DNA of 33,379 bases, taken from Sulfurovum sp. enrichment culture clone C5 (GTDB lineage Bacteria > Campylobacterota > Campylobacteria > Campylobacterales > Sulfurovaceae). A program made the position numbers and the translations under genes. Positions 1,555 to 14,425 of the stretch are shown here, piece by piece (the stretch's first letter is position 1; every line of letters begins with the position of its first letter). The notes under the pieces are model-generated. The model saw only the letters and a list, made by a program, of their open reading frames with translations, did no database searches and had not been told where the DNA came from. The stretch covers positions 1 through 33,379 of the forward strand of contig FAXN01000020.1 of assembly GCA_001493195.1 (NCBI GenBank). The letters run 5' to 3'.

Positions 1555-2334
1555 CTACAAGACTATTTCTCTAAATTTTTCTGACCTAGTATTTGGCAAA
1601 GCTTTTGTTAGACTACCCTTTACCGTATAGACAAATGAAATTTTTGGCTCATCAGTATCATTTTTGTTTGCACGATGAAGCAAAAGAGAGTGAAATATAA
1701 CTACATCACCTTTGCGTAAATTTTTTGAAACTTTATCTTTTATCAAATTTATGTTTGGTTCACAGTCTTCTCTAAAGTAATCTTTTTCATCAAATTGAAA
1801 TTTGTCATATTTTATCTTATGACTACCAGGTATAAACTCTAAGACACCATTTTCTTGACACTCTTCTCCAAGTGAGAGCCAAATACTAACTAAATTATCA
1901 TCCGTGTATCTCCAGTATCTTCTATCTTGATGCCATCTTGTTTGAGTGCTAACGTGTGGCATTTTTGTCATTATAGAGTTGTGATGAGCAAGAGTTATAG
2001 TTACTTTGTCATCTAGTATTTGCTCTAAAGCAGGTCTTATATTTTTATCTTCCATCCAATTTTTAAAAACAACATCTCTATCATAGACTTGTCTCAACCT
2101 TCTCACGGGAGCTTCAAATTCATACGCCATGCTATTATAATCAGACTCATTTGTTCTGTAATCTTTGGATTTATTGTCATAACCAACTTCCGTCTCGATA
2201 GGCTCTATTCTGTACTTTAGGTGTACTTTTGCCATTTCCAAGATTGCTTCACATTGAATGTGGGGAGCAAATTGTTCTAAAATTAAAAATCCATTTTCAT
2301 TAAAATCGTCGAGTTGTTGTTTTGTTAGTTGCAT
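1555..2334 (-). CDS. phytanoyl-CoA dioxygenase (PhyH) family protein
   Basis: A probable Fe(II)/2-oxoglutarate-type oxygenase of the PhyH superfamily; the substrate is unknown. Counting from the ATG at 2334 (259 residues), the iron-binding facial triad is H135-x-D137 in RWHQDRRYW, with the distal H220 in FHSLLLHRANKN. The cupin core also shows GVLEFIPGSHK. The position where human PhyH has its 2-oxoglutarate-binding arginine, 11 residues after the distal histidine, holds a lysine (K231), so cosubstrate use is less certain. A TTG two codons upstream (2340) is an alternative start, and neither start has a strong ribosome site. A TATAAT lies 28 bases upstream. The gene sits between yraN and trxA, which are adjacent in H. 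pylori, so it looks like a local insertion. Confidence 0.82.
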   Translation of the reverse strand: MQLTKQQLDDFNENGFLILEQFAPHIQCEAILEMAKVHLKYRIEPIETEVGYDNKSKDYRTNESDYNSMAYEFEAPVRRLRQVYDRDVVFKNWMEDKNIRPALEQILDDKVTITLAHHNSIMTKMPHVSTQTRWHQDRRYWRYTDDNLVSIWLSLGEECQENGVLEFIPGSHKIKYDKFQFDEKDYFREDCEPNINLIKDKVSKNLRKGDVVIFHSLLLHRANKNDTDEPKISFVYTVKGSLTKALPNTRSEKFREIVL

Positions 2335-2361
2335 ATCCAAGCTTTATTAAAAATTATCATC

Positions 2362-2367
2362 ATTATA
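2362..2367 (-). promoter_or_regulatory. -10 element for the PhyH-family gene
   Basis: A perfect TATAAT on the minus strand (2367-2362) lies in the 80-base gap after yraN. It is correctly placed to start transcription about 20 bases before the dioxygenase start codon. No -35 is recognisable, which is common in Campylobacterota promoters. Confidence 0.45.
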
Positions 2368-2420
2368 ATCCTATTTAGTTTAAAGAGATATGCTTTTTAA
2401 AAATAAATTTTCAAGAATAC

Positions 2421-2759
2421 TCATAAAGTTATATTTTCGATAAATTCTATTTTTTCTTGTCTGATGATAAGGGCATCTATACAAAAAGCCATATTGAGTT
2501 TCCTCTCTTTTAGAAAATAGTATGCAGAGTTGATAATTTTTCTAATTTTGCTTGGAGTTATATTGTATATAGGGTCAAAATCTGCATTTGCACTTTTGAC
2601 TTCGATAAAGTGTAAAACTTTGTTTTTTGAAGCAATGATGTCTATTTCACCAAGTTTCCTTGCATAATAATTTCTCTCAACTATCGTATAGCCACCAGAC
2701 GCTAGAAATTTAGTAGCAAGAGTTTCATTATAATTTCCAGTATCTTTGGTTGACATCAT
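2421..2759 (-). CDS. YraN/UPF0102 family protein (nuclease-like fold)
   Basis: A small protein of 112 residues belonging to the UPF0102/YraN family, which has a restriction-endonuclease-like (Holliday-junction resolvase-like) fold and no firmly established function. The family signature is GEIDII (47-52) followed by HFIEVK, the D...ExK-type catalytic arrangement of PD-(D/E)xK nucleases. The start is ATG at 2759, or the next codon at 2756, with only a weak ribosome site. It starts 10 bases after the stop of the HNH endonuclease gene, so it may now be read from the RM promoter. In H. pylori the family member HP0823 stands directly before trxA. Here the dioxygenase-like gene intervenes. Confidence 0.88.
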   Translation of the reverse strand: MMSTKDTGNYNETLATKFLASGGYTIVERNYYARKLGEIDIIASKNKVLHFIEVKSANADFDPIYNITPSKIRKIINSAYYFLKERKLNMAFCIDALIIRQEKIEFIENITL

Positions 2760-9791: not shown

Positions 9792-12305
9792 TTATTTATA
9801 TTTATACCATAAATATTCACCCCATTTACGTAACTCTATTAAACCAAAAACCCATAAAGCAAATAGACCTATTATTGCAAGTGACTCTGCATTTAGGGGG
9901 AGTGTATGGAACACGTCTGATAGTCCATATATAGCAAAGAGTTGCAAGATTAATCCAATACCTATGCCGTAAAATATATATGGATTAATCTGAAATGATT
10001 TTTTGATATTTTTTAAAAAAGGTTCGTTTTCTTTTAATGACTGTAAGCCGTTAATCCACGTAGAAATAACAAAAACCGTAAAAAGTATGGAGATAGCACT
10101 TTCTTTACCATAATGTTCAAGTATCCATATGTATAAAAATAGTGCACTAAAGCTAATAACTAATGCGGCATATAGTACGCGAAAAATTTGCACTTTGTCT
10201 AAAAACTGTTCATGTAGTTTAGTTGGCGGTCTGCTCATGACATCTTCTTCATTCTTTAGGAATGGAAATGTTTTGTCTAATGCACTGTCTGAAACTAGAT
10301 TGATCCATAATATCTGTAGTGGATAAAGTGGTAGAGGAAGTGCCATCAATATTGCACCAGTGATGAGAATCACTTCATCTAAACTTGTAGAAACAAGAAA
10401 ATAAACTGCTTTACGTATGTTTCCTGCGATTGCACGACCTTGCTTGATAGCATCTACTATAACAGAGAGATTGTTGTCAGCAAGTACCATTTTAGCAGTT
10501 GATTTGGCAGCTTCGCTTCCGTTTCCCATACTTATACCTAGGTTTGCAATTTTTAATGCTGGAACATCATTAACTCCATCTCCAGTAACTGCTACAATTT
10601 CTCCTTGTTTTTGCAAGCTTTTAACTATGCGATATTTATGTTCTGGAAGTACTCTTGCCCACACGGTTACTTTAGGTAAAAATGCTTCTAGTTTCTCATC
10701 ATCCATTTGATCTAGTTCTTTCCCTGAAATAACAAGATCACCATCTTTGTAGATACCTACCATTGTAGCAACTGCTTTAGCTGTTAATGGGTCATCTCCC
10801 GTTATCATCATAACTTTTACACCAGCTTTTTGAGCCGTTTGTACAGCTTTTAAAACCTCAATTTTAGGCGGATCTATAAAACCCACAAGTCCTACTATGT
10901 CTATTTTCCATTGATCTATTGCATCTGAAGTATATTTTCCAGTACCTAAGGCTATTACCCTCAAGCCCTCAGAAGCCATTTTATCATGCTCTTTTTTGAG
11001 AGTATTAAAATCTTGTGTGTTTAGTGCAAACTCTTTAAGCGATTCAAATGCACCTTTTACAAAAATTCTATGATCTTCTTGAACTATATTAGAACTTCCC
11101 ATTAATCTGTATTTGGTATCAAAAGGATAAAGATTAACTCTAGGATATTTTTCTCTGATATTTTTATACTCTTTTCCCACCCAAAGTGCCAAGGCGGTAT
11201 CCATTGGATCACCATTTCCTTCTATAGATTCATTGGCAAGTGCTGAGACAGCTTGAGTGAAAGTATCATGCAAAGAGAAAACCTCTTGCACTTTGAGTTT
11301 ACCCTCAGTAATAGTGCCAGTCTTGTCTGAAGCTATGACTGTTGCACTACCTAATGTTTCAACGGATGGTAAATGACGAATGTAAACTTTTTTGACACTA
11401 AGTGTCATCGCGCCTATGGTTAAGACAAGAGTTACAACTATTGGCAGACCTTCGGGTACTGCAGAAACAAGCTCGGCAATAACTAAATAAATGACTTCTA
11501 AAAGTTCTCTACCTTGTCGTAATGCAAGAAAAGCTGTCAAGGCGATTATCATAAGCAGGATACTCATATGTTTTTGGCTAAAAATCTCGAGAGCTTTGCT
11601 TAATGGTGTATCTATAGAATCTTCCTCGGCTCTGCTGGCAATAGACGCAAGATATGTTTTTTGAGCTGTAAATACAACAACTCCTTCAGCTTTACCCTTG
11701 GTCACTGTAGTACCAGAAAGCGCCATATTGTGCAGTTCATATGGTAGCATTTCTTTTGATAGTATGAGTTGTGCATCTTTTTCCACAGGCATAGATTCGC
11801 CTGTAAGTATAGATTCATCAATAACTAATCCATTGGTTTTAAATAAGCGTATATCTGCAGGTATGATATCTCCTTCACCTAGAATGATGATATCTCCTGG
11901 TACAAGTTCTGTTGATGGGATAGTTAAGATTTTATTTTCACGTCTGATTTGTGTTTTGTTTTGAGTAAGTTTTTTTAGTGCCTTGATGGATACTATGGCT
12001 TTTGTCTCTTGCCAAAAGCCTATGGAAGCATTTACAAAGATAATGATCAGTATCAATAATCCTTCATGCATATTTCCTAAAAAAATAGAAAGTAGTCCAG
12101 CAGCTACCAAAACATAAACGAGTGGACTCTTAAATTGCTTGATAAAGAGCAAGAAATAATGATGTTTTTCCTCTTCAATTTCATTTTTTCCATACAACAA
12201 AAGATTTGCCTTTGCCTTGTTGTAATGAAGCCCTTTTGCTGAAGTTTCCAACATATTAAATATAGACTCAACAGTTTCACTTTGCGGGTATTCAGGAATG
12301 TTCAT
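9792..12305 (-). CDS. P2-like cation-transporting P-type ATPase
   Basis: An inner-membrane ion pump of 837 residues with the full P-type core. It has TGES (168-171) in the actuator domain, PEGLP (284-288) in M4, DKTGT with the phosphorylated D327, the nucleotide-binding KGAFE (418-422), TGDDPLTAK (502-510) and the hinge GDGVNDVPAL (575-584). About ten membrane segments are visible. An N-terminal cation-ATPase domain (10-60) and no metal-binding CxxC argue against a heavy-metal P1B pump. Compared with SERCA, M4 keeps its glutamate and M6 keeps N669 and D673. The sequence after D673 (SALDKTFPF) departs from the usual DGLPATALGF, so the ion (calcium, magnesium, sodium or other) is uncertain. The ATG has an AGGA ribosome site. 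Confidence 0.9.
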   Translation of the reverse strand: MNIPEYPQSETVESIFNMLETSAKGLHYNKAKANLLLYGKNEIEEEKHHYFLLFIKQFKSPLVYVLVAAGLLSIFLGNMHEGLLILIIIFVNASIGFWQETKAIVSIKALKKLTQNKTQIRRENKILTIPSTELVPGDIIILGEGDIIPADIRLFKTNGLVIDESILTGESMPVEKDAQLILSKEMLPYELHNMALSGTTVTKGKAEGVVVFTAQKTYLASIASRAEEDSIDTPLSKALEIFSQKHMSILLMIIALTAFLALRQGRELLEVIYLVIAELVSAVPEGLPIVVTLVLTIGAMTLSVKKVYIRHLPSVETLGSATVIASDKTGTITEGKLKVQEVFSLHDTFTQAVSALANESIEGNGDPMDTALALWVGKEYKNIREKYPRVNLYPFDTKYRLMGSSNIVQEDHRIFVKGAFESLKEFALNTQDFNTLKKEHDKMASEGLRVIALGTGKYTSDAIDQWKIDIVGLVGFIDPPKIEVLKAVQTAQKAGVKVMMITGDDPLTAKAVATMVGIYKDGDLVISGKELDQMDDEKLEAFLPKVTVWARVLPEHKYRIVKSLQKQGEIVAVTGDGVNDVPALKIANLGISMGNGSEAAKSTAKMVLADNNLSVIVDAIKQGRAIAGNIRKAVYFLVSTSLDEVILITGAILMALPLPLYPLQILWINLVSDSALDKTFPFLKNEEDVMSRPPTKLHEQFLDKVQIFRVLYAALVISFSALFLYIWILEHYGKESAISILFTVFVISTWINGLQSLKENEPFLKNIKKSFQINPYIFYGIGIGLILQLFAIYGLSDVFHTLPLNAESLAIIGLFALWVFGLIELRKWGEYLWYKYK

Positions 12306-12346
12306 TGATTGTTTCCTATGCTGATTAATTCCTATTATTATTTATA

Positions 12347-12355
12347 ATTTTACCA
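12347..12355 (-). promoter_or_regulatory. extended -10 promoter for the P-type ATPase gene
   Basis: On the minus strand TGgTAAAAT (12355-12347) is an extended -10 element 41 bases upstream of the ATPase start. It lies in the 272-base divergent region shared with rpsB. Confidence 0.45.
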
Positions 12356-12422
12356 TAACAAAAGAGTGATTTTGTGCAATAAAATATTTAGTTTTGTAAT
12401 GACTAATTGTTTAAGATTTATT

Positions 12423-12431
12423 TGGTATAAT
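12423..12431 (+). promoter_or_regulatory. extended -10 promoter for rpsB-tsf
   Basis: TGgTATAAT is a perfect extended -10 element. A start site near 12438 gives a leader of about 140 bases before rpsB, long for this compact genome, and that leader contains the inverted-repeat structure at 12470-12519. Confidence 0.65.
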
Positions 12432-12469
12432 ATTGTCTCATTTTCTATTAAGATTTTGAAAACCTCACA

Positions 12470-12519
12470 TGTAGTTATTCCTTGTAATGGTTGCACAAAT
12501 TGTTGTGTTAAGGACTGCA
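12470..12519 (+). promoter_or_regulatory. structured mRNA leader of rpsB, possible S2 autoregulatory site
   Basis: Three nested stems can form. The outer one pairs 12470-12474 with 12515-12519 (one G-U), the middle one 12479-12483 with 12510-12514, and the inner one 12494-12498 with 12503-12507, closed by a four-base loop. They are separated by a 4-base bulge and a 10/2 internal loop. The element lies in the 5' untranslated region about 60 bases before the rpsB start. In gammaproteobacteria S2 represses its own leader. Whether this element does the same is inference from position and shape. Confidence 0.45.
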
Positions 12520-12577
12520 GAGGCAAAAACCAGATAAGCGAGAAATCGTAAAATATTTAATTGACCAAGGAGAAAAA

Positions 12578-13360
12578 ATGGTAACAATGAAAGATTTGCT
12601 AGAGTGTGGTGTACACTTCGGGCATCAAACAAGAAGATGGAATCCAAAAATGAAAAAATTTATTTTTGGCGAAAGAAAAAATATATATATTATAGATTTA
12701 CAAAAAACTTTGAGATATTTCAAATATACTTACAATATCGTTAGAGATGCTGCAGCTGAAGGCAAAACAATGCTTTTTGTTGGAACAAAAAAACAAGCAA
12801 GAGTTGCGATTGAAGAAGCTGCAAAATCATGCGGTATGCCATATGTTTCAAACAGATGGTTGGGCGGTATGCTTACAAACTATCCAACAATAAAAAAATC
12901 AATCAGAAAACTTGAAATAATCGAACAAATGGAAGAGAATGGTCAAATCAAACTTTTGACTAAAAAAGAAGCTTTGATGCTAAGTAGAACAAAAGATAAA
13001 CTAAATAATTATCTAGCTGGTTTTAGAAATATGCAAAAACTTCCAGATATGATGTTTGTTGTTGATACTGTAAAAGAGCATATAGCAGTTGCAGAAGCTA
13101 GAAGACTTGGAATGAAAATAGTAGCTCCGCTTGATACAAACTGTGACCCTGATTTGGTTGATTATCCAATCCCTGGGAATGATGATGCTATAAGATCAAT
13201 TGAGCTTTTCTGTAAAGAGATGGCTGAAGCTATGAACGAAGGCAAAAATATACTTGCTGAAAATAATGGCGAAGTTGTAGAAGAAGCTCCAGTTAGTGCC
13301 GATGAAGTTGAAGAAGTTGTTGCTGAAGTTAAAGAAGAAGCAATCAGCGAAGAGGAGTAA
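12578..13360 (+). CDS. rpsB: 30S ribosomal protein S2
   Basis: A structural protein of the small subunit, needed for S1 binding and assembly. The protein has 260 residues with the signatures [19 protein letters not shown] near the N-terminus, [11 protein letters not shown] and, towards the C-terminus, [14 protein letters not shown]. The last 40 or so residues form an acidic, glutamate-rich tail. The ATG at 12578 has a strong AGGAG ribosome site eight bases upstream, which favours it over the ATG three codons later. tsf follows after three bases, forming the usual rpsB-tsf operon. Confidence 0.98.
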
Positions 13361-13363
13361 TTG

Positions 13364-14425
13364 ATGGCAAATTTTGGACCAGCAGACATTAAAAAACTAA
13401 GAGAAATGACTGATGCTGGAATGTTGGACTGTAAAAAAGCTCTGACTGAGGCAGATGGTGTTATGGATAAAGCAGTGGAGTGGTTAAGAGATCAAGGTCT
13501 TGGAGCTGCTGCTAAAAAAGCAAGTAAAGTTGCTGCAGAAGGTTTAGTTGGCATGAAAGTTGAAGGCAAAAAAGCTGTCATTGTTGAAGTTAATTCACAA
13601 ACAGATTTTGTTGCTAAAAATGAAAAATTTACAACTTTTGTAAATGACACTATCAATCATGCTTTTGAAAATGACTTATCTAATGCAGATGCTATTAACA
13701 ACTCATCGATCAATTCACAGTCATTTGGAGAATATCTTTCAATGCAAATTGCTACAATTGGCGAAAATATGGTTGTAAGAAGATCTGGCATGCTTGTGGG
13801 CGATGAAAATACAGCCATCAATGGATATATACACGCAAACGGCCAAGTAGGTGTTATTATTGCCGCTAAATGCGACAGTGCAAAAACAGCTGATGCTATG
13901 ACAGCACCTCTTAAAGATGTAGCAATGCATGCAGCAGCAATGAAACCTACAACGCTTAGCTATAAAGATTTTGATGCTTCTTATGTTGCTGATGAGACAC
14001 AAGGTCGTATTATCAAAATAGAAAAAGAAAATGAAGAGAGAGCAAGATTAGGTAAGCCTTTACTAAATATTCCTCAATACATTTCAATGGCTCAATTGAC
14101 TGACGATGTTTTGGCTGCGGCTGAAGCTGATATCAAAGAGAAATTAAAAGCAGAAGGTAAACCAGAGCAAATCTGGGACAAAATTGTTCCAGGTCAAATT
14201 GCTAGATTCATTTCTGACAATACGACACTCGATCAAGAACAATGTTTGTTAGATCAAAAATTTGTTATGGATGACAGTATAACTGTTGCTCAGTATATAG
14301 AAAATAAAGCTAAAGCAGCAGGTGGTAGCGCAGAGATAATTTCATTTATTCGTTTAGAAGTAGGTGAAGGTATCGAAGTAGCTCAAGAAGATTTTGCTGC
14401 AGAAGTTGCTAAACAAATGGCATAA
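13364..14425 (+). CDS. tsf: elongation factor Ts
   Basis: The guanine-nucleotide exchange factor that recycles EF-Tu-GDP to EF-Tu-GTP. The UBA-like N-terminal domain (1-50) contains TDAGMLDCKKAL (16-27), and the core carries the TDFV motif (80-83) and VAMHAAAMKP. The protein has 353 residues, the length usual in Campylobacterota and longer than in E. coli. A TTG directly after the rpsB stop is in frame, but the ATG one codon later is correctly spaced from the AGGAG inside the rpsB end. It is followed by a strong hairpin and a convergent gene. Confidence 0.98.
   Translation: MANFGPADIKKLREMTDAGMLDCKKALTEADGVMDKAVEWLRDQGLGAAAKKASKVAAEGLVGMKVEGKKAVIVEVNSQTDFVAKNEKFTTFVNDTINHAFENDLSNADAINNSSINSQSFGEYLSMQIATIGENMVVRRSGMLVGDENTAINGYIHANGQVGVIIAAKCDSAKTADAMTAPLKDVAMHAAAMKPTTLSYKDFDASYVADETQGRIIKIEKENEERARLGKPLLNIPQYISMAQLTDDVLAAAEADIKEKLKAEGKPEQIWDKIVPGQIARFISDNTTLDQEQCLLDQKFVMDDSITVAQYIENKAKAAGGSAEIISFIRLEVGEGIEVAQEDFAAEVAKQMA

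Follow-up and report, generated by a model that had tools for sequence, protein, structure and literature searches.

The window analysed here is the whole 33,379-nt stretch of contig FAXN01000020.1 (GCA_001493195.1), from Sulfurovum sp. enrichment culture clone C5. Within it, the genes encoding ribosomal protein S2 (rpsB) and elongation factor Ts (tsf) are preceded by a structured leader, the elements of which are listed in Table 1. The closest named relatives, as judged by the S2 protein, are Sulfurovum and Sulfurovaceae genomes (95–96% identity). The extended −10 element reported in the first-pass annotation is found in the sequence, and its position makes a leader of about 140 bases, with a transcription start near 12438, plausible. 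This element was not listed by a sigma-70 promoter scan, and no terminator-like sites were found at 12300–12640.

Table 1. Features of the rpsB–tsf leader region in the window. Column numbers refer to alignment A1 (71 leaders).
Feature	Position	Strand	Basis
Extended −10 promoter element TGGTATAAT	12423–12431	+	sequence; TATAAT-like boxes similarly placed in congeners
P1, 5′ strand, UGUAGU	12470–12475	+	A1 columns 29–34; covariation
Unpaired UAUU (4-base bulge) separating P1 from the CCUU	12476–12479	+	column pair 34–95 standard in all 71 A1 rows, placing U12475 in P1
Near-invariant CCUU, 5′ side of the middle stem of the first-pass annotation (partner 12510–12513)	12480–12483	+	
Pseudoknot, 5′ strand, UGGUU, in the longer (10-base) strand of the internal loop 12484–12493/12508–12509	12488–12492	+	
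P3 hairpin CACAA-AUUG-UUGUG	12494–12507	+	A1 columns 55–58/85–88
P1, 3′ strand, ACUGCA	12514–12519	+	covariation, as for the 5′ strand
Conserved GAGG 3′ of P1	12520–12523	+	A1 columns 101–104
Pseudoknot, 3′ strand, AACCA	12528–12532	+	anchored pairing count
P4 hairpin GCGA-GAAA-UCGU, between pseudoknot and Shine-Dalgarno	12538–12549	+	MFE fold; congener alignment
Putative Shine-Dalgarno AAGGAG of rpsB	12567–12572	+	position; complementarity
rpsB, ribosomal protein S2	12578–13360	+	PF00318, E 3.1e-97
tsf, elongation factor Ts, next gene downstream	13364–14425	+	PF00889, E 3.6e-63

A conserved fold closed by a pseudoknot upstream of rpsB

The first-pass annotation had placed a multi-stem leader at 12470–12519. 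The stems are present in the sequence and in the MFE fold, and the interval extends exactly from the 5′ to the 3′ strand of P1. The 4-base bulge, the asymmetric 10/2 loop, the AUUG-capped stem (12494–12498/12503–12507) and the U12472–G12517 wobble in the outer stem were all correctly read. As a single sequence, the window leader folds in an ordinary way, with z values of −0.38 (158 nt) and −1.40 (71 nt). What escaped the annotation is the pseudoknot: the 10/2 internal loop holds the UGGUU strand that can pair with AACCA downstream of P1.

The rpsB upstream regions of 141 loci were compared over their last 120 bases, which yielded 127 distinct leaders. The upstream sequence is too short in two of them (L085 and L086), which lie at contig ends. 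The element is present in canonical or shrunken form in 124 rows, and the remaining leader, L046, carries a divergent form. Alignment A1 comprises 71 of the 124 parsed rows. Considering P1, P3, the middle stem and the pseudoknot together, 92.1% of the cells in A1 form standard pairs, compared with 76.1% in shuffled alignments and 34–49% when the strands are slid, and two-sided changes are found in 257 cells, compared with 73.7 after shuffling. P1 is paired in 99.8% of cells, with two-sided changes in all six pairs, and P3 in 91.6%, with two-sided changes in all four.

Because sequence counts can be inflated by kinship, changes were also mapped on a phylogeny of the rpsB coding sequences. P1, the middle stem and P3 have 14 pairs in total, in which 105 coincident two-sided changes were counted, compared with an expectation of 28.8 (at most 42 in 2000 draws); all 105 fall in P1 and P3. 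Five of the six P1 pairs and three of the four P3 pairs reach p ≤ 0.0005, the exceptions being column pairs 34–95 (p 0.0565) and 58–85 (p 0.064). When P1 and P3 were slid by one column as a control, 30 coincident changes were found against 21.0 expected (maximum 33); a standard pair was kept in only 3 of the 30, and a single slid pair reached p 0.0425. The covarying pairs that the first-pass annotation had proposed to look for in related genomes are hence found in P1 and P3, in 71 leaders and with the tree taken into account. Its picture of three stacked stems is supported for these two stems and not for the middle one, CCUU/AAGG, in which none of the four pairs shows a coincident change in the tree-aware analysis of A1.

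In the middle stem, column pair 41–93 is non-standard in 26 of the 71 rows, and the CC and the facing G are nearly invariant, which is compatible with pairing without demonstrating it. The invariance may instead reflect conserved contacts. As a possible P2, RNAalifold proposes a 2-bp CC/GG hairpin that would use the GG of the pseudoknot; both strands of this hairpin are nearly invariant. The sequence of the GAGG block is also strongly conserved (G in 70, A in 57, G in 69 and G in 69 of the 71 rows).

Both the G-U in the outer stem and the 4-base bulge had been proposed as protein contacts. The former is unlikely to be one, as the corresponding columns 31–98 are occupied by UA in 38 rows, CG in 29 and UG in 4, and U-G is therefore one of several interchangeable pairs. 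A contact at the bulge is plausible: A12477 and U12478 are each kept in 66 of the 71 rows, the other two bases being variable. U12475 belongs to P1, since column pair 34–95 is standard in all 71 rows of A1, and UAUU is thus left unpaired.

GGUU occurs in the 10-base loop side of nearly all leaders, and AACC occurs 3′ of P1. The pseudoknot is paired in 86.3% of cells when A1 is taken as it stands, with its 3′ strand out of register in some rows, which we attribute to gap placement. Pairs were also counted in 122 anchored rows, leaving out the shrunken L136 and L137 and setting the L117 anchor by hand. At least four contiguous pairs can form in 121 of the 122 rows (the exception is L117) and at least five in 66, the first four being partly built in because the anchors demand GGTT-like and AAC[CT]-like words. 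Among 78 distinct strand pairs, the fifth pair, which is not biased by the anchors, forms in 57.7%, compared with 36.0% after shuffling, and none of 5000 shuffles was as high. Positions 6 and 8 give no pairing signal, and position 7 a weak one (188 of 5000 shuffles). In the Arcobacter loci L123 and L125, the two strands read GGGCU and AGCCC.

Distribution and variant forms in Campylobacterota

Stronger proof of the pseudoknot than that given by canonical rows comes from compensatory change in family f16, the leaders of which (L046 and L143–L172) have a GGUGC-type core and a 6-bp pseudoknot of many different sequences. In these leaders GGUGC replaces GGUUGC, the GAGG block is lost, and the P3 loop reads GAAANAAU in most rows. 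Alignment A2 was built from 26 of 31 available f16 loci, without L166, L170 and L172, which retain the canonical type, L156, a near-duplicate, and L167, too divergent for placement. The six pseudoknot pairs are formed in 97.4% of cells over the 26 rows, and five of the six show two-sided changes. On the tree, 16 coincident changes were counted, and the pair is kept in all of them. With the strands slid by one column, six were counted against 2.4 expected, the pair being kept in none, and one slid pair reached p 0.007. In f16, too, the innermost letters are set by the anchors, which leaves the outer three pairs free of bias. P1 (84.3% of cells paired) and P3 (77.5%) align less well in this family, and the middle helix is again weak, being paired in 59.7%; taken singly, five of the six f16 P1 pairs fall short of significance in the tree-aware test.

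Two covariance models, R1 (cut-off E 0.05) and the f16-derived R2 (cut-off E 0.001), were used to search 397 Campylobacterota genomes. R1 matches 328 of the 397 genomes, in 61 of 68 genera, including a single f16 genome (G107). R2 adds 38 genomes, all of f16 and none overlapping with R1, so that the two models together find the element in 366 of the 397. The position of 20 further matches was checked for each model, those of R1 being high-scoring; this was not a random draw. All 40 lie 13 to 112 bases before the S2 start on the same strand, and in 37 the core differs from every row used in training. In an earlier comparison of match and rpsB coordinates, agreement was found in 26 of 26 cases, the window's genome included, and in 12 of 12, many of which had fed the models. 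The S2 leader is present in most Campylobacterota genomes, and the Rfam model misses it at its cut-off. A 2024 review describes conservation of this leader "at least across" gammaproteobacteria in its accessible part (PMC10931766).

Neither model matches the other 31 genomes. In two of these (G023 and G193) a match to rpsB is absent from the assembly as well. Six others, from genera g38 and g51 of the probably Helicobacter-like family f13, carry by eye a shrunken leader in which P1 and a G-rich block are kept. The shrunken f13 leaders (L136, L137, L175–L178, L181 and L182) retain P1 and this block and have a reduced apical part. AAACTTT, the presumed pseudoknot strand of L136 and L137, is immediately followed by AAGGAG. 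G429 has two full S2 matches on different contigs, and contig 4 of G129 has a second, partial Ribosomal_S2 match (48652–48861, L184) of 19.4 bits, under the cut-off.

Additional hairpins flank the element. Hairpins of at least four Watson-Crick pairs between the pseudoknot and the Shine-Dalgarno were scored as P4 and compared with dinucleotide shuffles. They occur in 82 of 125 distinct leaders, a count that includes kinship, whereas shuffled sequences give 19.5 on average and 29 at most; 79 are left when misparses into P3 (L153, L164 and L167) are removed. P4 hairpins comprise 60 different sequences, and thus their shape is kept and their sequence is not. Eight of the 11 leaders of the window's genus have such a hairpin, and L016 lacks half of the stem. 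The P4 of the window, with three Watson-Crick pairs and a closing G-U, falls below the strict criterion. P4 may be a lineage-specific addition.

A 5′-terminal hairpin is located just before P1 at 12438–12464 and in the same stretch of 37 leaders from the window's family and its kin; in L027 and L033, for instance, it is formed by UCCAU/AUGGA. The 36-nt 5′ flank folds better than its shuffles, with a mean z of −1.70, compared with −1.30 for the core element.

Relationship to the rpsB motif and to the E. coli S2 operator

The leader is a Campylobacterota member of the rpsB motif, the S2 leader described by Meyer 2009 (PMC2704228). As set out in the accessible part of that source, the motif lies upstream of rpsB and features P1, a variable P3 and a pseudoknot between a junction strand and a 3′ extension. 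In the leaders analysed here, rpsB is directly downstream, P1 undergoes compensatory change, P3 is variable, and the J2-3 strand forms a pseudoknot with the 3′ extension after P1. The pseudoknot of the motif is described as having five pairs outside Firmicutes, and its variable P2 as possibly short or absent (PMC2704228). A P2 is not clearly discernible in the window leader, which differs from the motif in featuring P4, a hairpin not mentioned in the available section text of Meyer, and the f16 leaders differ in their altered consensus.

The first-pass annotation knew of no description of S2 autoregulation in this phylum. The motif listing of Meyer 2009 already includes "a few Epsilon-" members (PMC2704228, accessible part), so that the phylum is not blank and the novelty of the leader is reduced. 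Our literature search found no Campylobacterota S2-leader paper beyond Meyer 2009. In their accessible parts, PMC6429828 analyses an Arcobacter genome and mentions an rpsB RNA in no organism other than an alphaproteobacterium, and PMC7247131 names rpsB once, as belonging to an L13 leader of Bacteroidia, and does not name Epsilon or Campylobacter.

No Rfam family matches the leader at its gathering score. In a relaxed search of 4227 families, t44 (RF00127) was the first of two matches (12448–12529, + strand, 18.8 bits, E 0.12); it is the best-matching family and lies at the right place and on the right strand, below its gathering threshold of 44 bits. The t44 model matches the leader in 3 of 20 loci from relatives at E 10 (L007, L026 and L041). 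Among 150 genomes of the phylum, 15 have a match at E 1 or better and none exceeds the threshold, the best reaching 34.6 bits. In a control search, Thermotoga maritima was also matched, and on our reading E. coli alone is over the cut-off. Conversely, R1 picks up the rpsB leader of E. coli, where T44 is annotated, with 16.9 bits (E 0.0032 in 1.2 kb); in a larger run the E value was 0.22, and a chance match scored 14.4 bits. The models alone tie the leader only weakly to that of E. coli, and the shared layout carries the argument. Other r-protein leaders, such as those of S15 and S6:S18, share autogenous control through the 5′ UTR (Rfam; PMC7247131, accessible part), and none of those in Rfam gives a match to the window leader at E 10 or better. 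At L007, the model of HPnc0260, an antisense RNA of bacteria, matches positions 2297–2452 (+ strand of the locus) narrowly below its threshold (58.1 of 59 bits); the match is on the other strand, just upstream of the leader, and overlaps a tRNA match.

The S2 operator of the E. coli rpsB–tsf operon (t44; tff, b4414) reads CACACACGTATC, GGGGTGCC, GATACGTGGAGG and ATAACCCC. It shares with the window leader a CACAC...GTGGAGG frame and P1, and the GTGGAGG is at the same place as the GAGG in Table 1. On our reading, the GGGGU of its junction strand can pair with ACCCC after P1. In contrast, P1 is shorter in the window leader, and P3 closes directly on GGUUG and UU.

Proposed regulation by S2 and alternative readings

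In E. coli, surplus S2 represses rpsB–tsf translation via the leader, with the help of S1 (PMC10931766, accessible part), and control of rpsB by S2 is also given in PMC2704228. The operator excludes the Shine-Dalgarno and the start codon, and a bulge in the leader is reported to be needed for regulation (PMC10931766); the 4-base bulge of the window leader may correspond to it. The first-pass annotation had suggested S2 autoregulation from the position of the leader. The same position and an architecture like that of the E. coli S2 leader, together with weak reciprocal model matches, make it the best reading, and we consider it very likely that the Campylobacterota rpsB motif mediates S2 autoregulation through the rpsB–tsf leader.

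The comparison shows how the rpsB–tsf 5′ UTR folds, with P1, a bulged junction, P3 and a closing pseudoknot between the junction and the strand after P1, and that this fold is conserved and lies ahead of rpsB. The subsequent steps, from binding of S2 to repression and the way in which it blocks, rest on homology. Free S2, in excess over assembling 30S subunits, would most likely bind this fold, as it does in E. coli with help from S1, and bound S2 would block translation of rpsB and, through rpsB, of tsf. Repression would probably hinder initiation or ribosome standby without masking the Shine-Dalgarno in a helix. The pseudoknot of the window ends 34 bases before the Shine-Dalgarno, which lies outside the element; this points to hindrance rather than masking. 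In the 122 rows, the start codon follows the AAAC[CT] word, located by pattern, at a median distance of 47 bases; the two shrunken rows have a distance of 13, and the other 120 span 20 to 163 bases. Spacing this variable speaks against simple masking and suggests that initiation or standby is hindered. PMC10931766 (accessible part) describes the way in which S2 represses with no contact to the Shine-Dalgarno as unclear. The two usable models, and the natural series of canonical, f16-type and shrunken variants, would allow S2 repression without Shine-Dalgarno contact to be tested.

A more specific proposal, that Campylobacterota have a distinct form of S2 autoregulation in which P4 couples S2 binding to ribosome access and the f16 core has been rebuilt as S2 and leader co-evolved, is tentative and, in our view, rather doubtful. 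If it holds, the rebuilding of the recognition core in f16 implies that the S2 protein and the leader of that family must have co-evolved.

The element could also be a conserved cis-regulator of rpsB–tsf that responds to a ligand other than free S2, for example a small molecule, an intermediate of 30S assembly, EF-Ts or S1 by itself. In E. coli, S1 is reported to be a required partner of the repressor (PMC10931766, accessible part), which would suit this idea. We regard it as improbable, because position and architecture match the E. coli leader, where S2 supplied in trans represses, and because rpsB is directly downstream in all 40 matches checked. Lower still is the probability of a structure that acts mainly on mRNA stability or processing, or enhances translation, without feedback. 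A 5′ UTR location would be expected of such a structure, and the flanks with P4 and the 5′-terminal hairpin also out-fold their shuffles; however, a compensatory pseudoknot with the layout of a reported repressor site exceeds what an end-protecting hairpin needs.

Compared with S2 autoregulation, two further explanations have a negligible probability. The z values of the single sequence, only −0.38 and −1.40, would be compatible with chance hairpins, an explanation refuted by covariation on the tree and also at odds with distribution and position. The other is control by a cysteine-rich leader peptide encoded in the open frame at 12366–12551 (+ strand), for which a similar reading exists in 2 of 10 congeners (L020 and L029). 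Length changes break the cysteine-rich frame in the other 8 of 10, so that it probably arose by chance; the frame has no Pfam match, and its bases covary as RNA.
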